Assembly: GCA_003164095.1 (NCBI GenBank)
Contig: PLRX01000065.1
Span: 1 to 64,000 of the forward strand
Direction: 5' to 3'
Length of the DNA: 64,000 nt
From: Acidimicrobiaceae bacterium
Lineage (GTDB): Bacteria > Actinomycetota > Acidimicrobiia > Acidimicrobiales > RAAP-2
In this document: piece by piece, positions 23,583 to 34,414 of the stretch
How positions within the stretch are numbered: position 1 is the stretch's first letter
How the letters are laid out: every line of letters begins with the position of its first letter
Notes under the pieces: model-generated
The model's input: the letters and a program-made list of their open reading frames with translations, nothing else
What the model was told of the DNA's origin: nothing
The model's database searches: none
Translations under genes and position numbers: made by a program

Positions 23583-25220
23583 TCAGCATCCGTTCGGACG
23601 TGCGACAGGCACCCTGGCGTCCACGGTCGTGCCCCGGCCGATCTTGGACGTGACGCGCAGCCGTCCTCCGACGAGGCGGGCCCGCTCACTCATCCCGGGT
23701 AGGCCCAGCGACTGGTTGTCCCCCCAGAACTGACGTTGCGGATCGAAGCCGGCCCCGTCGTCGGTGACGGACAGGCCGAGCCACCCGTCGCCGAACCGCA
23801 GTGCGACATCCACGCGGTGCGCCGATGCGTGGCGCTCGGCGTTGGTGACGGCCTCCTGGGCGATCCGGAACACGGCGAGCTCCATGGCAGGGGGCAGGCG
23901 GGTGACGGTCCCGTCGATGGTGAACGAGCTCTCGAACCCCTGTCGCTCGGTGGCTTCGGACACGACCTGGTTGATCGACGCAACGAGGCCGAGGTCGTCG
24001 AGCACGGAGGGACGGAGCCCGCGGGCGATCGACCGGAGCTCGGCCACCGTGTCCTCGACCGACGACCGCATCGCTGCCAGCCGCTCGGTGTCGCGGACGC
24101 CGGCAGGGTCTGGACCGGACGGAGGACCGTCGAGCGCGTCGATCTGGCGGCACAGGTGGATGAGCGCCTGCAGCGGGCCGTCGTGGAGCTCCTGGGCGAT
24201 GTGTCGGCGCTCCTCCTCCTGACCGAGGACGACCTGGCCGGCGTAGGCCTTCATCAGATCGTGCCGCCGCGTCTCGGCGGTCACGTCCTCGAAGATGACC
24301 TGCATCCGTCGGTCGGTGCCCGGGGCGCCGACGAGCGTCGAGGTCGGCCGGTAGAGGACCCGCTCACCATCCACCTCGAAGGTGAGCGGGCGCTCCCGTT
24401 CGTCGTCGACCTGGCCCCCGGCAACGTGCACGGCCTCGTCGGCGGAGTCGTCCGGTGTGGATCCAGCGGGACCCGGAGGGACCTCGTGGGGGTCGTCGTC
24501 GAGCAGACGGGTGAGTACCCGTGCCGCGGCTTCGGGCCCGACGACGTCGACCAGGCGACGCTCGACCCCTGACGCGCTTCGTCCACCTGGACCGGGGCCG
24601 ATGGCCGCTGTGCTGAAGACCCGGTCCGCGGCGGCGTTGGACCCGACGACCCGGCCCTCCCCGTCGACGATGAGGATGGGGGAGCGGTTCGACTCGAACA
24701 TGTCCTGGTAGAGGAGCTCGGCGCGCAGACGGGCTGTCTGGGCCGCATCGGCCTGATCCCGGAAGCGTGTCTCCGCCGTCACTCGACTGCCGACGACGAG
24801 CGCGAGGGCCAACAGCACGACGAGCTGGAGCACCTCGCTCCAGAGGGCCGGCATGCGCCCGTGGTCCGCCGCCTCGACCATCCGGGGGATGTCGAGGATC
24901 GCGACCCACCCGACGGTCGCGAGGCCGCCGGCCACGCCGTAGTCGAGTGCGGTGGCGACCACCGGCACGACGAAGATGACGATGGTCGAGACCTCGAGTA
25001 GGACATCGCCGGGGTCGAGGCCGTAGGCGACGGTCACCGCCAGCCTGACGAGAGCGAACGCCAGCACTGCGAGCTCGAGGAGCCAGAAGCGCGAGTCCGA
25101 CCACGGCGTCCTGGCCGACGAGATCCCACGCCGGCGCCGGTCGCGTCCGGTGCCCGCAGGCAAGGGCGTCGTGTTGCGGACCTCCGCTGTGGTCGTGCTC
25201 GCACCCCCGGGAGTCGTCAC
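23583..25220 (-). CDS. NarL-type sensor histidine kinase with PAS domain
   Basis: A 545-residue membrane sensor kinase. Residues about 45-145 form four hydrophobic helices. A PAS-like domain follows (about 165-300, starting LYQDMFESNRSPILIVDGEG). The HisKA_3 dimerisation helix carries the phospho-acceptor His in RRHIAQELHDGPLQALI (about 335), and the HATPase domain has IAQEAVTNAERHASA (N box, about 460) and DDGAGFD (G1). It autophosphorylates and passes phosphate to the response regulator encoded just upstream. The GTG start overlaps that gene's stop (GTGA). The signal sensed is unknown. It lies inside the pilus locus. Confidence 0.9.
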   Translation of the reverse strand: MTTPGGASTTTAEVRNTTPLPAGTGRDRRRRGISSARTPWSDSRFWLLELAVLAFALVRLAVTVAYGLDPGDVLLEVSTIVIFVVPVVATALDYGVAGGLATVGWVAILDIPRMVEAADHGRMPALWSEVLQLVVLLALALVVGSRVTAETRFRDQADAAQTARLRAELLYQDMFESNRSPILIVDGEGRVVGSNAAADRVFSTAAIGPGPGGRSASGVERRLVDVVGPEAAARVLTRLLDDDPHEVPPGPAGSTPDDSADEAVHVAGGQVDDERERPLTFEVDGERVLYRPTSTLVGAPGTDRRMQVIFEDVTAETRRHDLMKAYAGQVVLGQEEERRHIAQELHDGPLQALIHLCRQIDALDGPPSGPDPAGVRDTERLAAMRSSVEDTVAELRSIARGLRPSVLDDLGLVASINQVVSEATERQGFESSFTIDGTVTRLPPAMELAVFRIAQEAVTNAERHASAHRVDVALRFGDGWLGLSVTDDGAGFDPQRQFWGDNQSLGLPGMSERARLVGGRLRVTSKIGRGTTVDARVPVARPNGC

Positions 25221-25936
25221 GGCCCGTCACCAGCCTCCACCGCGATGTCGCCGGCGTCCGGGTCGCGGACGAAGAGCCGGCTCGCAAGTGCGAAGTGGAC
25301 GAGCTCGGTCCGCGACAGGATGTCGAGCTTGTCGAACACGTGGTTGAGGTGTCCCTCGACTGTCCGAGGACTGATGCCCAGCTGGTGAGCGATCGCCTTG
25401 TTCGACATGCCGCGGGCGACGAGCTGCACGACCTCTGACTCCCGGGCCGTGAGGCGCTCGTCAGCCGTCGGTCCACGGTCGACGAGGTCCTTCTCTCCCT
25501 GACCCCGGGGCAGGGCACCCCGGGAGAGGGCACCGGAGCAGGCGTCGCGCAGCGCGGCAACGAGGTCATGGCTCGGCAGGGTCTTGAGCAGGTAGCCCGA
25601 TACACCGGCCGCCATGGCGGCGCGCACGTAGTGCTCGTCGTCGTAGGCGCTCAGGATCACCACCAGCAGGCCGGGATGGTCGTCCACCAGCCGCCCGGCC
25701 AGGTCGATGCCGTTCGATGTCGGCATGCGGATGTCGGTGATGACGAGGTCCGGCTCGGTCGCGGTCACCACGTCACAGGCTTCGTCCGCGTCCGCCGCCT
25801 CACCGACGACCCTGAACCCGTCTGCCTCCTCGAGGATTCCCCGGGTGCCGGCCCGGAGCAATTCGTGGTCGTCGACGATGACCGTCCGGAGCACGGGCCC
25901 CGGCGACAGGGGATCGCTCGGCGCGACGCGGTCCAT
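25217..25936 (-). CDS. NarL/LuxR-family response regulator
   Basis: A 239-residue two-domain regulator. The receiver domain (about 15-135) has the acidic pair DD at 22-23, the phospho-acceptor D68 in LVITDIRMP and the Lys in YLLKTLPS. The C-terminal LuxR helix-turn-helix (about 160-220) reads LTARESEVVQLVARGMSNKA. It should bind DNA as a phospho-dimer. It is first in an operon with the kinase and has a leaderless-type TACCAT box 6 nt before its ATG. Its position among pilus genes suggests, but does not prove, a link to pilus expression. Confidence 0.92.
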   Translation of the reverse strand: MDRVAPSDPLSPGPVLRTVIVDDHELLRAGTRGILEEADGFRVVGEAADADEACDVVTATEPDLVITDIRMPTSNGIDLAGRLVDDHPGLLVVILSAYDDEHYVRAAMAAGVSGYLLKTLPSHDLVAALRDACSGALSRGALPRGQGEKDLVDRGPTADERLTARESEVVQLVARGMSNKAIAHQLGISPRTVEGHLNHVFDKLDILSRTELVHFALASRLFVRDPDAGDIAVEAGDGP

Positions 25937-25954: not shown

Positions 25955-26791
25955 TCAGCCTGCGACCACGAGGGACACGACCATGGCGACGACCATCCCG
26001 GTGACCATCGGGGCAGACGCCACGGGAAGCATCGGCACGGGGGGAGCAGCGGTGTCGGGCCCCGGGGCACCTGCACCGACGCGTCGGCGTCCGACTGCCC
26101 AGAGCACGACGAGGCAGGCGAATGCGGTCAGCATCCACGCCGCACCACCCGCGAGCACCGCCGCACCTGATGACGCACCGATCCCACCCAGCCAGCAGCC
26201 GGTCGCAGGCAACAGCGCCCGACCGTGCCACCGGGGGTCACGGCAGCCCGGGTCCAGCGTTCGCAGCAGCCCGAAGGCAGCGACTCCCACGATGAGTCCG
26301 ACCGATGCCCACGCGGCGACCGGGTCGAGCCTGATCCACAGCGCTGCCACCGCGACGAGCACCGTGCCGATGCCAGCGCCGACCGCCCCCACCGCCAGCG
26401 GCGTCCTGCTCCCTCCGTACTCGATGAGCGCGGCGGCGATCGCCGTGGCGGCCAGGATGCAGTAGCCGGCGGTGAGCGCATTGCCGTGCCATGCCCAGGC
26501 CACCAGGGCGAACGCCACGCCGGTCGCCAGCTCGACGAGCGGGTAGCGGGCCGAGATGGGCTCGTGGCACGTGTGGCACCGTCCGCGCAGGGCCATCCAC
26601 GACACCACGGGCACGTTCTCCCACCAGGACAGTGTCCGGTCGCAGGTGGGACAGAAGGAGCGGGGCGTCGACACCGAGAGTCCCAACGGTGCCCGGTAGA
26701 TGACGACATTGAGGAAGGAGCCGACGAGGAGCCCGAAGATCGCCGCGACCACGATCACGAGTACCTCCACGGCGGACGACGGATCGCTCAT
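25955..26791 (-). CDS. Prepilin-peptidase-like protein without catalytic aspartates
   Basis: A 278-residue integral membrane protein homologous to PilD. The N-terminal half is intact: GLLVGSFLNVVIYRAP (19-35), two zinc C-x2-C pairs (Cys 47/50 and 72/75), NVPVVSWMALRGRC and RYPLVELATG. PilD cuts prepilins with two aspartates. The first, in the usual ID-x6-P, is Glu here (IEYGGSRTP, about 124). The second, in GxGDxK, is Gly (WHGRALLPATGCWLGG, about 188-203; the flanking LL-x-A-x-G-x-WLG still aligns). Cleavage by this protein is therefore doubtful, while the region linked to N-methylation and zinc binding is kept. A true peptidase should exist elsewhere. The ATG 26791 is chosen for the family start. 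Confidence 0.8.
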   Translation of the reverse strand: MSDPSSAVEVLVIVVAAIFGLLVGSFLNVVIYRAPLGLSVSTPRSFCPTCDRTLSWWENVPVVSWMALRGRCHTCHEPISARYPLVELATGVAFALVAWAWHGNALTAGYCILAATAIAAALIEYGGSRTPLAVGAVGAGIGTVLVAVAALWIRLDPVAAWASVGLIVGVAAFGLLRTLDPGCRDPRWHGRALLPATGCWLGGIGASSGAAVLAGGAAWMLTAFACLVVLWAVGRRRVGAGAPGPDTAAPPVPMLPVASAPMVTGMVVAMVVSLVVAG

Positions 26792-27253
26792 GGGGCAGGC
26801 GCTCCGTGTGGGAACGCGGCCGGAAGCGTCTCGTCGGCGGGATGGGTGATGGTGTGTCCCGCCTGGACCCACATGGTGGAACCTCGTCAGCTCGCCGGAT
26901 CAGGTGGGTCACCTTACCGCCGCACCTGGGACGGACCGGATGACCGCAGCCTCGGACGAGCGACACGCAGATCGTTGGGAGGAGCCAACCGCAGTCCATC
27001 GGACCGACGCCGGTCGTTGCGTTCGCACCAGTTCTGCACCCGTGTGGCAACGGGAAACGCGCGTACCCGACCGTACGATTGCATGAAAGGACGTGGGGCC
27101 ACCCATGACCGGCAGGGGTGGGGCGGTTCCTGACCGGATGTGTGTCCGTGGCCGGCGGACCAGGTCGCCCGCTCGGGGCGCCCGATGGGTCAGCTCACCG
27201 TCCGTCGCAGAATCCCGTTCAATCTCTGCCCCGAGTGTGCCGATGGGAGTTCC
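26792..27253. promoter_or_regulatory. Divergent spacer upstream of pilB
   Basis: These 462 bases lie between the PilD-like and pilB start codons. No gene is convincing; the open frames here are short and compositionally odd. A TACGAT box at 27074-27079 could be a -10 for the pilB-pilT-pilC transcript, leaving a leader of about 170 nt. GGGAG at 27245-27249 is the pilB Shine-Dalgarno. Confidence 0.35.
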
Positions 27254-29614
27254 ATGAGCGACGTGGAGGCCACGAGGTACATGGCGAGCGAGCGCGAGAT
27301 CGAGTTCGTCGACCTCGACACCTACGGTGTCGACCCGACCGCGGCAGCCATCCTGCCGGTCGGGATCTCGCGCCGTCACCGCGTCGTGGCCGTGAAGCGG
27401 AAGTTCGGGACTCCGGTCATCGCCACGGCCGATCCTGACGACCTGTTGGCGGTGGACTCCATCCTGGCCTGCCTGGGCAGGGACTTCATCTCGGTGGTGG
27501 CCTCGCCCGAGCAGATCGACCACTACATCGACCTCGCTTTCCGGGAGGGTGGTCCCGTAGCGGCGAGCCCGACATCATTGGGCGACCTCGCCGTCGAGAT
27601 CGGTGAGTCGGACGATGCCTTCGACCAGGCGATCGCCACCGTTGAACATTCAGCGGCAGCCGGCGCCCCGCTGCCCACGCTCGACCTCCCGCCGCCGTCT
27701 GTCGCGACGGTGCCACCGATCGACCCGTCACTGGCAGGACCGATCGTCCCTGGTCCTGCGGGTGACGACCAACTCGCCGATCTGGCACGGGCGCTCGAAC
27801 GGGACGGCGACGGACCTAGTGCCGACGCCACGCCCGACCACGACGCCGCCGATCTGGTAGCCGAGGCCGTGGCCAACTACCAGACCCAGCACCCCACCAC
27901 CGGTCCGACCGATGGTGAGTTGCTGGCCGGGTTCCCCCCGCTGGCGAAGGCGCTCGTGGAAGGTGGCCGCGTGCAGGTGGAGGCCATGAGCCTGGCGCTC
28001 GAGGAGCATCGCCTCACCGGACAGAGCATCGCCCGCATCCTGACCAACCAGAAGCTGGTCACCGAAGCCGACCTCATGTGGGGCATGGCCCAGGAGATGG
28101 GCCTCCAGTTCGTCGACCTCGACACCGTGGGTGTCGACCTGTCGACGGCGAGCACCATCCCCGAGACGACGGCCCGCCACCACAACGTCATCGTCATCGC
28201 CATGGACAACGGCGTCCCCGTAGTGGCGGCCTCCAATCCGACCGACGTGTTCGCCATGGACGACCTGCGGACCATCATCGGCAGCAATTTCATCGTGGTC
28301 GTGGCGACCAGGACGCAGATCACCGCCTACATCAACCGGGTGTTCTCGAGCGGTGATGCAGCCGACATGGCCATGGAGGCCTCGCTCGGCATGGACGGAA
28401 CGATGGCCGAGCCCGGCGTCGACGACATCCAGACCGCCACCGAGACGGCCCCGATCGTGCGGTATGTCAATCTCCTGATCCTCCAGGCCCTGAACGAGCG
28501 CGCCTCGGACATCCACATCGAGCCGACCGCCATGGACCTGCGGATCCGGTACCGGATCGACGGTGTGCTCCATGACGTGTCGACCGGCCCGAAAGCCATC
28601 GCTGCGGCGGTCACCACACGCCTCAAGGTCATGGCCGACATGAACATCGCGGAGCACCGTGTCCCCCAGGACGGCCGCATCTCACTCAACGTCGGGGCCA
28701 AGGGCATCGACCTCCGCATGGCCACACTTCCCACCATCTACGGCGAGAAGATCGTGATGCGGGTGCTCGACAAATCGAGCGTGGTGCTCGGGTTCGCGGA
28801 GCTGGGATTCGACTCCGAGATGCTGAGCAACTACGAGACGCTCTACACGAAGCCATACGGCACGATCCTCGTCAGCGGCCCGACCGGCTCCGGCAAGTCG
28901 ACCACGCTCTACACGACCCTGACCGCGCTGAACTCGCCCGAGAAGAACATCATCACGGTTGAGGACCCGGTCGAGGTCCCGCTGAAGGGCGTCAACCAGG
29001 TCCAGCTCAACGTCAAGGCCGGCCTGAACTTCGCCAGTGCCTTGCGCGCCATCCTGCGCTCCGACCCCGACATCGTCCTGGTGGGCGAGATCCGGGACAA
29101 GGAGACCGCACAGATCGCCATCGAGGCCGCACTGACCGGCCACATGGTCCTCGCCACCCTCCACACCAACAGTGCCGCGGCCACGCCGATGCGCCTTATC
29201 GAGATGGGCATCGAGCCCTTCCTCGTGACCTCGGCGTTGTCCGGCGTGGTGGCCCAGCGCCTCGCCCGGCGGCTGTGCATGCACTGCAAGGTGCCCTACA
29301 CCCCCACGGAAGCGGACATCGCCGCCGCCGGCTGGACCCTCGACGAGGTCGAGGCCGTCGGCGCCCTGGGTCAGGTGCACCGCTCCGTCGGTTGCTCGGC
29401 GTGCTCCCAGACGGGCTACCGGGGACGACTCGCTCTTGCCGAACTGATGCCTATGACCGAGGAGGTCGAGCGCATGATCATCGAAGGAGGCTCGGTGGAG
29501 GACATCCACCGGCTCGCCGTCACCCAGGGCATGGTCGCCCTCCGCCAGGCCGGGCTCCGCAAGGCCATCGACGGGGAGACCACACTCGAGGAAGTCCTGC
29601 GGGTGGTCGCATGA
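27254..29614 (+). CDS. pilB: PilB pilus-extension ATPase
   Basis: A 786-residue ATPase that drives pilus assembly. Two GspE/MshE N-terminal-type domains come first: residues about 10-95 (EIEFVDLDTYGVDPTAAAIL) and 215-360 (MGLQFVDLDTVGVDLSTAST). The first copy lacks the leading helical subdomain. The catalytic part has Walker A GPTGSGKSTTLYTTL (about 541-555), Asp box ITVEDPVEVPLKGVNQVQ, Walker B DIVLVGEIRDKET, a His box LATLHTN and a zinc site with CMHC and CSAC (about 675-717). The ATG 27254 is fixed by GGGAG five bases upstream. It overlaps the following pilT by 4 bp. Confidence 0.93.
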   Translation: MSDVEATRYMASEREIEFVDLDTYGVDPTAAAILPVGISRRHRVVAVKRKFGTPVIATADPDDLLAVDSILACLGRDFISVVASPEQIDHYIDLAFREGGPVAASPTSLGDLAVEIGESDDAFDQAIATVEHSAAAGAPLPTLDLPPPSVATVPPIDPSLAGPIVPGPAGDDQLADLARALERDGDGPSADATPDHDAADLVAEAVANYQTQHPTTGPTDGELLAGFPPLAKALVEGGRVQVEAMSLALEEHRLTGQSIARILTNQKLVTEADLMWGMAQEMGLQFVDLDTVGVDLSTASTIPETTARHHNVIVIAMDNGVPVVAASNPTDVFAMDDLRTIIGSNFIVVVATRTQITAYINRVFSSGDAADMAMEASLGMDGTMAEPGVDDIQTATETAPIVRYVNLLILQALNERASDIHIEPTAMDLRIRYRIDGVLHDVSTGPKAIAAAVTTRLKVMADMNIAEHRVPQDGRISLNVGAKGIDLRMATLPTIYGEKIVMRVLDKSSVVLGFAELGFDSEMLSNYETLYTKPYGTILVSGPTGSGKSTTLYTTLTALNSPEKNIITVEDPVEVPLKGVNQVQLNVKAGLNFASALRAILRSDPDIVLVGEIRDKETAQIAIEAALTGHMVLATLHTNSAAATPMRLIEMGIEPFLVTSALSGVVAQRLARRLCMHCKVPYTPTEADIAAAGWTLDEVEAVGALGQVHRSVGCSACSQTGYRGRLALAELMPMTEEVERMIIEGGSVEDIHRLAVTQGMVALRQAGLRKAIDGETTLEEVLRVVA

Positions 29615-31233
29615 CATCGGTCACGTCGAGCACGCGAAATCAGTGGAACACCCGCCTGGCCGAAGCCCTCGTCGAGGCCGGATACGAGACGGCCGCGGGC
29701 CTGCAGCCCGTGGTCGACCAGGCGACGATGTCGAACCAGTCGCTCGGCTACCTCCTGGTCAGCAGCGGCCGAGCCCTCCCGAGCGTCGTGGTCGGCACGT
29801 TGGCTCAGCTGGCACAGCTGCCAGCGGTCGACCTGTCGGACTTCACCCCGCAGCCCGACGCGACCGCGGCGATGCCCGCCGGGGTCGCGGCCGAGTACGG
29901 CGCCATGGCCCTGCAGATCGACGGTCACGCCCTGGTGGTGGCATTTGCCGAGCCCCCGGAACCCGTGGAAGTCGACGAACTGGCCGGGGTCGTCGGGCAC
30001 CGGATCCACCCGGTCCTGGCCGATCCCGCGGTCATCGCGCGCCACATCGGAACCGATGGATCCACACCACAACCCGCCCCGGAAGGTCCGGCCGAACCGC
30101 GTGACCGTACCGAGGTGCTGGAGGAACTCCTGGAGAAGGGGATCGTGGCCGGTCGCTCGGACGACTCGGTGCCGCTCCACGTCGACGACCTGCTCCGCTA
30201 CGCCGTGTCGGTCGGTGCATCGGATCTGCACCTGACGGCGGCCATGCCGGGCACCATCCGCCTGAACGGAGCGCTGCGCCCGATCGAGGGCTGCCCGCCG
30301 CTCGACAACGAGACCATCCGGGACATGATCTTCGGGATCCTGCCCGGGTCGCAGCGTGAACGGTTCGAGGACGAGAAGGAACTCGACACCTCGCACACCA
30401 TTCCGGGCGTCGGCCGCTTCCGTTTGAACGTCGCGCTCCAGCGGGGGACGATCACCGCGGCCCTCCGGCCGATCCCCCACGAGATGCCGGTCTTCTCGAG
30501 TCTCGGGCTGCCCGACTCGATCCGTGCGTTCACCGACCTGCGGCGCGGCCTGGTACTCGTGACCGGGCCCACCGGTTCCGGCAAGTCGACGACGCTCGCG
30601 TCGCTCATCGACATCATCAACCGGACCAAGCCGCTCCACATCGTCACCGTTGAGGATCCCATCGAGTTCCTGCACGACCACAAGCGGTCGATCATCACCC
30701 AGCGCGAGATCGGCGAGGACACCGACTCGTTCGCCGAGGCCCTCCGCCGGGTGCTGCGCCAGGACCCCGACGTCATCCTGGTCGGCGAGCTCCGCGACCT
30801 CGAGACGATCTCGATGGCCTTGACCGCCGCCGAGACGGGTCACCTGGTCTTCGGCACTCTGCACACCCAGGACGCCCCGCAGACCGTCGACCGGATCATC
30901 GACGTGTTCCCGACCCAGCAGCAGGAGCAGATCCGCGTGATGCTCGCCTCGACACTCGAGGGCGTCGTGACCCAGCAGCTCGTGCCCACTGCCGACGGCA
31001 GCGGCCGTGCGCCCTGTGCCGAGGTGCTCGTCTGCACGTCCGCCGTGCGCAATCTCGTCCGCCAGGCCAAGACCCACCAGATCTATTCGCTGATGCAGGT
31101 GGGCGGCTCGTTCGGGATGCAGACGATGGACCAGGGCCTGGCCGGGATGGTCAAGGCCGGGATCATCTCCGAGTCCATCGCCTACGACAGGTCGTCCAAC
31201 GAGGAAGACCTCCGCAACCACCTGCACCACTGA
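29611..31233 (+). CDS. pilT: PilT retraction ATPase with extra N-terminal domain
   Basis: A 540-residue PilT. Residues 1 to about 150 are an added domain that resembles the MshE/GspE N-terminal fold (VEAGYETAAGLQPVVDQATM, then LAQLPAVDLSDF and a VAFAEPPEPVEVDELAGVVG region). The normal PilT core follows, from about residue 180. Walker A GPTGSGKSTTLASLID (about 320), IVTVEDPIEFLH, Walker B DPDVILVGELRD and LVFGTLHT are intact. The retraction motif AVRNLVRQ is present near residue 480, followed by HQIYSLMQVGG, so this copy looks like the classical retraction motor. ATGA overlap with pilB. PilT is usually about 350-370 residues, so the extension is unusual. Confidence 0.92.
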   Translation: MTSVTSSTRNQWNTRLAEALVEAGYETAAGLQPVVDQATMSNQSLGYLLVSSGRALPSVVVGTLAQLAQLPAVDLSDFTPQPDATAAMPAGVAAEYGAMALQIDGHALVVAFAEPPEPVEVDELAGVVGHRIHPVLADPAVIARHIGTDGSTPQPAPEGPAEPRDRTEVLEELLEKGIVAGRSDDSVPLHVDDLLRYAVSVGASDLHLTAAMPGTIRLNGALRPIEGCPPLDNETIRDMIFGILPGSQRERFEDEKELDTSHTIPGVGRFRLNVALQRGTITAALRPIPHEMPVFSSLGLPDSIRAFTDLRRGLVLVTGPTGSGKSTTLASLIDIINRTKPLHIVTVEDPIEFLHDHKRSIITQREIGEDTDSFAEALRRVLRQDPDVILVGELRDLETISMALTAAETGHLVFGTLHTQDAPQTVDRIIDVFPTQQQEQIRVMLASTLEGVVTQQLVPTADGSGRAPCAEVLVCTSAVRNLVRQAKTHQIYSLMQVGGSFGMQTMDQGLAGMVKAGIISESIAYDRSSNEEDLRNHLHH

Positions 31234-31273: not shown

Positions 31274-32503
31274 GTGTCACTGACATTCGACTACAAGGTC
31301 CGGGACAAGTCCGGCGATCTCGTCGAGGGGCAGCTCGACGGCGACAGCATGGCCCTCGTGGTCCGGCGTCTGCGCGAGATGGGGTACATGCCCATCTCCG
31401 TGACCCCGAAGTCGGCGGTGAGCCTGAAGACGGAGATCAAGATCCCGGGTGTCACGAACCGGATCAAGTTGCGCGAGATCGCAGTGATGACCCGGCAGTT
31501 GTCGACCATGGTCGATTCGGGACTGTCGGTCGTCCGCTCGCTCGGCATCCTGGCCGCACAGATCGAGAACCCTGAACTCGCCCGCATCCTCAACGACGTC
31601 CGGACCGACCTCGAGCACGGGTCGTCGTTGTCCGTCGCGTGTGCCAAGCACCCGAAGGCCTTCTCCAAGCTCTACTGCACCCTCATCCAGGCCGGTGAGG
31701 TCGGCGGAAACCTGGACGAGGTGCTGACCGGTCTCTCCGACACGATCGAGAAGCAGGCCAACCTCAACAAGACGATCAAGTCGGCGATGACCTACCCGTC
31801 CGTGGTGCTCGGCGTCATGGTGGTGATCTTCTCGGCGATGATCATCTTCATCGTCCCGGTGTTCCAGGGCCTCTTCAAGAGCCTCGGCGGGAAGCTTCCG
31901 CTGCCGACGCAGATCCTCATCGACGTCTCGAACATCATGACGAGCGTCTGGGTCTTCGCTGTCATCGCCGCGGTCGTCGCGATCATCATCGGGATCCGGA
32001 AGTGGATCTCCACCGAGAACGGCCGCAGGATCTGGGACAAGGCCATGCTGAAGCCCCCGATCTTCGGGCAGTTGTTCCACAAGGTGGCGCTGGCCCGGGT
32101 CACGAACACCCTGGGCTCATTGATCAACTCGGGTGTCCCGATCCTCGAGGCCCTCGACATCAGTGCGGAGACCGCAGGGAACGTCACCATCGGCAACGTC
32201 CTGCGAGAGGCCAAGGTCGGCGTGCGCGAAGGGCGGCCGCTGGCGGACCCGTTGCGTGAGCACGAGGACGTCATCCCGGGCCTCATGGTGCAGATGATCG
32301 AGGTCGGCGAGCAGACCGGTGAACTCGACGGCATGCTGAAGAAGGTCGCGTCCTTCTACGACCAGGAGGTCGAGGTGACGGTCAACAACCTGACCGCACT
32401 GCTCGAGCCGCTCCTGACCGTCGTGATGGGCGTCGGTGTCGGCATGATGGTCATCTCGCTGTACCTGCCGATGTTCGACTACATCAAGCTCGTGCACAAC
32501 TGA
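31274..32503 (+). CDS. pilC: PilC pilus platform protein
   Basis: A 409-residue inner-membrane protein that links the ATPases to the growing pilus. It has the duplicated T2SS-F domain: the first with TRQLSTMVDSGLSVVRSLGI (about 75-95) and the second with VTNTLGSLINSGVPILEALD (about 275-295). Three long hydrophobic segments lie near residues 175-198, 220-240 and 375-398. The N-terminal FDYKVRDKSGDLVEGQLDGD is typical. GTG start with GGGGA upstream, 40 bp after pilT on the same strand and probably in the same transcript. Confidence 0.94.
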   Translation: MSLTFDYKVRDKSGDLVEGQLDGDSMALVVRRLREMGYMPISVTPKSAVSLKTEIKIPGVTNRIKLREIAVMTRQLSTMVDSGLSVVRSLGILAAQIENPELARILNDVRTDLEHGSSLSVACAKHPKAFSKLYCTLIQAGEVGGNLDEVLTGLSDTIEKQANLNKTIKSAMTYPSVVLGVMVVIFSAMIIFIVPVFQGLFKSLGGKLPLPTQILIDVSNIMTSVWVFAVIAAVVAIIIGIRKWISTENGRRIWDKAMLKPPIFGQLFHKVALARVTNTLGSLINSGVPILEALDISAETAGNVTIGNVLREAKVGVREGRPLADPLREHEDVIPGLMVQMIEVGEQTGELDGMLKKVASFYDQEVEVTVNNLTALLEPLLTVVMGVGVGMMVISLYLPMFDYIKLVHN

Positions 32504-32781: not shown

Positions 32782-33431
32782 GATGCATCGAGACGTCGAT
32801 ACCGATGGAGGCTTCTCGCTGATCGAGCTGATGGCGGCACTCCTCGTGTGGGCATCCTGATGGCCATTGCCGTACCCACCTTTCCTGGGACGACGGGCGC
32901 AGCGGACGACCGGTCGTCCCAATCCGACCTCGTCACGGCCATCACCGAGGTGAAGGTTCAGTTCCAGAGTGACGGGCAGACCTTTGACGTCAAGGGTCAG
33001 TCCAATGCCGGATTGCTCGCGACGGCACTCGAGGGTGCCCAGATCGATCTGGCGTCCAAAGCCGGCTCACTCGGGCAGTCGATCGCCCTCGGAAGCCCAG
33101 GTTCCGCATCGGATATCTCGGTGTCCGTGTCGTCCGACGGAAGCGGCGTGGTCCTTGCCGCATTCTCGGTACCTGGCAACTGTTTCTATGTCGTGGACAA
33201 TGCCGTGGTGCTGAGACCCGCAGTAGCGGCCACGAATCCGTACGTCGGATCCAGTCGGTCACGACGACGAGCCAGTCGATGTCGGGGGCCATCGGACTAC
33301 CGACGAGGGCCGGCACGTCCTACGTGACGGTGGCCGGCGACGTCGACAAGTCCGATTGCAATGCCTTCGAGCCTAAGGCATCCGGGGCAGGTGTGACCGC
33401 CTCCTCTCAGACCGCAGGATTTGCGTCCTGA
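32782..33431 (+). pseudogene. Frameshifted type IV pilin
   Basis: A pilin gene broken in two places. The class III-type start is clear: a short leader, then GG before FSLIELMAALLV with Glu5. The frame then hits TGA at 32858. One extra base near 32848 would restore LLV-x-GILMAIAVP and join the next frame, which runs as a pilin body (VKVQFQSDGQTFDVKGQ, NCFYVVDNAVV) to about 33250. A second shift there leads into a good C terminus (AGTSYVTVAGDVDKSDCNAF) ending at TGA 33429-33431. The two Cys and their context parallel the intact pilA, so this is a decayed paralogue, or a gene with sequencing errors. The start ATG at 32782 is tentative. Confidence 0.72.
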
Positions 33432-33778: not shown

Positions 33779-34414
33779 ATGCTTTCATCCGTTATGCAGC
33801 GCCTGAATGACAGGCGTGACGGAGCGGCTGACCTGGGCGAGGATGCGGGTTTCACCCTCATCGAGCTCATGGTCGTGCTGCTCATCCTGGCCATCCTGCT
33901 CGCCATCGCCATCCCCACCTTCCTCGGTGTGACCGGCGGTGCCAACGACCGGGCTGCCCAGTCCAACCTGAACACCGCGCTCACCACGGCCAAGGCCGCG
34001 GCTGCGAACAACAACCAGTCCTACAGTGGCATCGGGGTCACCGGAGCTGCACCTTCGCTCGCGGCCAACGAGCCCAGCATTAGCTGGGTGGCCGGCTCCG
34101 TGAGCACGCAGGGCCCCGTGTCCGCGTACATCGCGTCAGCCGGTGCTGGCATCGTGCTGGCCACGTGGTCGAAGAATAACGGCGGCACGTGCTTCTTCGC
34201 TGTCGACAACCAGGCCACCGTGGTGCCTGGCACGTCTCCGCTCGACCTCGCGTGGCAGACGACCGGAACCCCCCCGAACTCGGCCCCGTTGACCGCTGGC
34301 ACGGTCTACGGCGAGTCCCAGGGTCACACCTCCTGCAACGCCGCCGCCGCCATTCCGGCGATCGACACCGCCGAGACAGGTGGTTGGGTGCAGCAGACCA
34401 GCGCTCTGAAGTAG
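33779..34414 (+). CDS. pilA: Major type IV pilin
   Basis: A 211-residue prepilin. A 24-residue charged leader ends in AG, followed by mature FTLIELMVVLLILAILLAIA with the essential Glu at mature position 5 and a hydrophobic spine. The globular part (mature length about 187) has a Cys pair (GGTCFFAVDN and HTSCNAAAA) likely to form a disulfide loop. The ATG at 33779 is set by AGAGGAG; an upstream in-frame ATG at 33749 lacks one. A strong hairpin follows at 34471-34501, so pilA can be a single-gene transcript made at high level. Peptidase cleavage is expected after Gly24. Confidence 0.95.
   Translation: MLSSVMQRLNDRRDGAADLGEDAGFTLIELMVVLLILAILLAIAIPTFLGVTGGANDRAAQSNLNTALTTAKAAAANNNQSYSGIGVTGAAPSLAANEPSISWVAGSVSTQGPVSAYIASAGAGIVLATWSKNNGGTCFFAVDNQATVVPGTSPLDLAWQTTGTPPNSAPLTAGTVYGESQGHTSCNAAAAIPAIDTAETGGWVQQTSALK

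Follow-up and report, generated by a model that had tools for sequence, protein, structure and literature searches.

In model species, a single enzyme both trims and methylates the subunits of the pilus, so only point mutants separate cleavage from methylation. We know of no mapping of the SAM site of PilD. In P. aeruginosa PilD, pilin methylation depends on Cys-bound zinc, whereas cleavage does not; a Gly and a basic residue preceding the third cysteine (Cys3) also contribute to methylation (PMC3584216). Some prepilin peptidases, such as TadV, FppA, and PibD, have no methylase domain (PMC10191384, PMC3244431), and gene fission has been described for TadB/TadC of type IVc pili (PMC6668835). 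In the non-subscription literature, no earlier report was found of a stand-alone PF06750/DiS_P_DiS protein paired with a separate peptidase, nor any earlier description of inactive prepilin peptidases or of aroC-linked peptidases.

The window analysed here is a stretch of 64,000 nucleotides, with a PilD homologue of 278 aa (from ATG; open reading frame check) encoded at 25955-26791 on the minus strand. This protein, called dead PilD below, is a proposed pilin N-methyltransferase that carries PF06750 without PF01478 and is kept in 25 genomes of its family. Like PilD, GspO, and ComC, which combine PF06750 with PF01478, it has the N-terminal helix, a zinc loop (CXXC-X21-CXXC, Gly-basic-Cys), a C-terminal half homologous to A24, and a gene placed among pilus genes. 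Unlike them, it lacks the catalytic Asp pair and GxGD, and the peptidase function apparently lies on another gene. On one side, the gene is flanked by a LuxR-type response regulator and the histidine kinase paired with it; on the other lies pilB, transcribed divergently and placed likewise in relatives. The encoded PilB-type assembly ATPase (27140..29614, plus strand) contains the Pfam domains T2SSE and MshEN. The locus holds two PilT-like ATPases (one at 29635..31233, plus strand), PilM, and a PilC platform protein (31274..32503, plus strand), which matches the NCBIfam PilC models below their curated cut-offs and was used as the pilus marker. It also holds a prepilin (33779..34414, plus strand; PF07963 32.4 bits; TIGR02532), whose N_methyl motif reads EDAG/FTLIE across the cleavage site (Gly-1, Phe+1, Glu+5). 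This is the presumed substrate: a pilin of the same genome, with the motif and the Phe+1 on which a methylase half would act.

The zinc/methylase domain is complete. Pfam places A24_N_bact (PF06750; E 3.2e-36, 123.7 bits) at residues 18-100, including membrane helix 1 (26492..26740, minus strand), and the AF2 model gives this region pLDDT >90. The four cysteines at 47, 50, 72, and 75 form CXXC-X21-CXXC with the spacing of P. aeruginosa PilD, and G70-R71 supply the Gly and basic residue before C72 (26567..26653, minus strand; sequence and alignment), the positions with a role in methylation (PMC3584216). WMALRGRC and RYPLVELATG are both intact, which bears out the sequence-only reading that the N-terminal half of PilD is preserved. 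That reading also suggested that the copy might be confined to methylating or binding prepilins, which the presence of all known methylase features of PilD supports. The four Cys and Gly-Arg would be necessary, perhaps insufficient, for the predicted methylation.

The C-terminal half (26087..26491, minus strand) keeps its predicted helices and has lost the catalytic motifs. A bifunctional PilD would match PF01478 above the cut-off; here Pfam gave no such match, even with E allowed up to 1. Profile-profile comparison (hhalign) aligns the half with A24 over 95 columns (prob 97.3, E 2.4e-11), covering the region of the first catalytic Asp (Asp1) and stopping before GxGD, a match that marks the C half as genuinely derived from A24. 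As proposed earlier, Asp1 is replaced by Glu: IEYGG (I123-E124; E124 codon at 26420..26422, minus strand) falls opposite the ID that contains the first catalytic Asp. At the second site, ...RWHGRALLPATG takes the place of the GxGD loop, which reads WHGRALL, with HGR (residues 189-191; 26219..26227, minus strand) at the motif position and G-R conserved in the window's subclade. The earlier statement that the second Asp is lost stands, as no Asp occupies the GxGD site, but its replacement by Gly (G190) depends on gap placement, MAFFT giving R191. E124 and HGR thus stand where an A24 peptidase has its two catalytic Asp, the second in GxGD. Alignment with A24 members and relatives finds both sites altered and the same changes in close relatives, so sequencing error does not account for them. 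Loss of GxGD is universal across all dead homologues; the Asp1 position varies: the window's subclade has E, g5 and several further genera have D, and others have A, S, or E. As a hidden second Asp, D180 and D185 were weighed and rejected, neither being conserved across all dead homologues. In the AF2 model, the helices following the zinc domain are kept at lower confidence; Foldseek against the PDB gave a best E no better than 0.3 with this model, whose C half is low-confidence. Solved structures searched by sequence gave chance matches only for dead PilD and none for the partner described next, and NCBIfam has no name for either protein.

The genome contains exactly one PF06750, in dead PilD, and exactly one PF01478, on a separate gene. 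The latter is an A24 peptidase (L001; C42:16255-16590) encoded directly upstream of aroC. It carries both catalytic Asp, in FTDLSHRLVP and GMGFGDVR, and lacks the zinc cysteines and CXXC, as is typical of A24 peptidases without a methylase domain; it scores 45 bits with Peptidase_A24 and matches the profile of intact A24 proteins with prob 100 and E 6e-50. The PilD-like first helix is retained, and a charged low-complexity linker replaces the zinc loop. Both Asp without a zinc loop is also the arrangement of TadV, FppA, and PibD. Unlike these, the partner keeps the first helix of PilD, coexists with a separate PF06750 protein, and has its genomic linkage with aroC, not with a Tad or archaeal locus; in a tree with a weak backbone, the TadV-like proteins of the same genomes (L072, L082, L101, L102) fall on another branch. 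The assembly yields no further A24 peptidase, although at 3.72 Mb, 95.5% completeness, and 163 contigs it could be missing one. The sequence-only reading had predicted that a separate enzyme cuts PilA, and the genome search offers exactly one candidate: by elimination and by its motifs, L001 would be the protein that cleaves the window's prepilin.

The pairing of the two proteins recurs across relatives. In a survey of 60 relatives and the window's own genome, a dead PilD in the pilus locus occurs in 26 genomes, 25 of the same family (12 genera) and one (G044) of another; in three of them (G005, G006, G011), it was counted from fragments at contig edges only. All 26 encode an A24 protein with both Asp; the zinc cysteines are absent from it except in G044, where the zinc loop is in the course of erosion. 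In 24 of the 26, this peptidase lies beside aroC, directly upstream; of the other two, one is near a contig end (G032) and one has no aroC within the 14 kb examined (G029). Conversely, a Cys-less aroC-linked peptidase was found in none of 16 relatives with an intact PilD. Fisher's test for the association gives 6e-12, a value that ignores kinship and shared ancestry between genomes and is therefore descriptive only. The within-family genomes with intact PilD that were tested have a different type of pilus (PilC 30-35% identical). Fairer controls are G045 and G050, from other families, which have the same kind of pilus (PilC 48-51% identical) and an intact PilD inside the pilus locus. G021 and G025 were considered as pilus loci without PilD and set aside: their contigs begin inside or just before pilB, so pilD may be cut off.

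Outside the family, the separation takes several forms. G039 and G091 encode proteins of roughly 95 aa that end right after PF06750 (97 aa and 125 bits for PF06750 in G039), each accompanied by a Cys-less aroC-linked peptidase. In G106, the protein encoded next to pilB is an N-only form that has diverged, its cysteines reading CxC...CC, and an aroC-linked peptidase is again present. G044 and G116 are intermediates, in which a dead PilD in the pilus locus is found together with a peptidase whose zinc loop is half-eroded. In G038 and G191, a complete PilD adjoins aroC, and the aroC-linked copy may have resembled these full PilDs before its loss. Elsewhere PF06750 is nearly always fused to PF01478, both in a class sample of 198 genomes and in a phylum sample of 119 genomes, where a count made by eye from tables gave fusion at 95/96 places, with the window's genome as the sole exception. 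In the peptidase tree, the aroC-linked proteins of the window's family form one group (SH-aLRT 94) with G044 next, and those of G039 and of G091/G106 are placed elsewhere; the backbone is weak. Most of the 26 dead-PilD cases probably descend from one event, and the number of independent splits is uncertain because support in single-domain trees is weak. Full-length PilD genes that directly adjoin aroC (L094 in G038, L116, and L205 in G191) also indicate that the linkage of prepilin peptidase and chorismate synthase genes is old in these lineages. A small PF06750-like subfamily, comprising L190 (G191:C81), L185 (G209), and L209 (G106:C35), has CxC...CC for CXXC...CXXC together with RGRARCCGA, and in G191 such a protein (L190) coexists with the full PilD beside aroC.

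Purifying selection clearly constrains both halves of dead PilD. A codon model of eight sequences of the genus gives omega ~0.05 for the zinc (N) part and ~0.07 for the C half, exact values being rough since silent sites are near saturation, and fixing omega at 1 costs ~158 and ~170 log-likelihood units, respectively. Among the homologues, 30 positions are invariant, almost all of them within the zinc domain. The C half has acquired new conserved features (HGR for GxGD), so mere decay does not describe it. Sequencing error and a pseudogene were rejected, given conservation in 12 genera and omega far below 1.

Complementary domain loss, its recurrence, synteny, and purifying selection are thus direct observations in the split pair. 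The reading that we favour, with a probability of about 0.7, is that PilD has been split and that the window gene represents its methylation half: two paralogues lost complementary halves, yielding a dedicated peptidase and a dedicated N-methyltransferase. The starting point would be two full PilDs, encoded in the pilus locus and beside aroC, respectively, an ancestral pair suggested by the full aroC-linked PilDs and the intermediates of other families. The pilus-locus copy would have lost its GxGD/Asp peptidase site and kept the zinc/methylase domain, and the aroC-linked copy would have kept both Asp and lost its zinc loop. The aroC-linked enzyme would then cleave the pilin leader between Gly and Phe, and dead PilD would methylate the newly exposed Phe1; by analogy, this predicted N-methylation draws on the residues known in P. 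aeruginosa PilD and on the persistence of the domain alone. As in the TadB/TadC fission, a two-domain pilus protein gives way to two single-domain proteins; there, however, one gene was cut in two, whereas here two paralogues apparently lost complementary halves. A wider claim, that reciprocal loss in two PilD paralogues split cleavage from N-methylation several times in one actinobacterial class and that the window protein is, within the literature searched, the first recognised stand-alone pilin N-methyltransferase, is plausible and leans towards being right.

Retention of the C half with conserved new residues (HGR, E124, W219) at omega ~0.07, in a gene that adjoins pilB, would also suit a pseudoenzyme adaptor, that is, a protein without catalytic activity whose helices and zinc domain would bind prepilins and hand them on, either to the aroC-linked peptidase or to PilB/PilC. 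We regard this as unlikely: every residue known as needed for methylation is conserved, which an adaptor would not require, and the N-domain-only forms of ~95 aa (G039, G091) are entirely without a C half. Another possibility is that the aroC-linked A24 protein serves a different class of substrate, the pilin being cut by an enzyme missing from the assembly. The aroC-linked gene does lie outside the pilus locus, and G009 has such a gene with no PilC detected in an assembly that may be incomplete; yet the protein is the sole A24 peptidase found in the window's genome, and it accompanies dead PilD in 26/26 genomes, which makes this reading very improbable. No more credible is a window protein that still acts as a peptidase through different acidic residues, such as E124 paired with D180 of a conserved L-D-P. 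Members of the window's subclade commonly have an acidic residue at 124 and Asp at 180, but D180 precedes the GxGD position by about ten residues and is missing from many dead homologues outside that subclade, the Gly residues of GxGD are lost as well, and a separate complete A24 peptidase is encoded in every dead-PilD genome. Finally, despite the vanished catalytic motifs and the odd low-complexity tails of some relatives, a decaying relic retained by chance beside pilB can be dismissed as next to impossible in view of the strong purifying selection on both halves, the 30 invariant positions concentrated in the zinc domain, the place beside pilB kept across genera, and intact reading frames in 12 genera.

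If the two steps are indeed divided between two genes, the methylation step, long unexplained, could be tested by itself in this lineage with a clean deletion. The split pair would also provide a small natural methylase domain for structural work, and the zinc domain would appear as an independent evolutionary unit. For annotation, the locus is a warning that a pilD gene in a pilus locus is not necessarily the peptidase.

The option that dead PilD acts as a regulator, also raised by the sequence-only reading, found no specific support. The regulatory genes nearby are those of the LuxR-type response regulator (25217..25936, minus strand) and the histidine kinase paired with it (23583-25220, minus strand); the pair (23583-25936) lies directly downstream of dead pilD, adjoins it in many relatives, and may regulate the pilus. 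In the dead PilD homologues L014, L015, L018, and L013 (genera g3, g21, and g20), the C-terminal tails contain Cys/Gly-rich repeats, such as (CGTGT)n, that fall between the last two predicted helices. A second prepilin copy, possibly a pseudogene, a case of recoding, or an assembly error, lies immediately upstream of the intact pilin, at about 32830-33330 of the window (plus strand). It is frameshifted: the leader, GGFSLIELMAALLV, and the continuation, GILMAIAVPTFPGTTGAADDRSSQ..., are in different frames.
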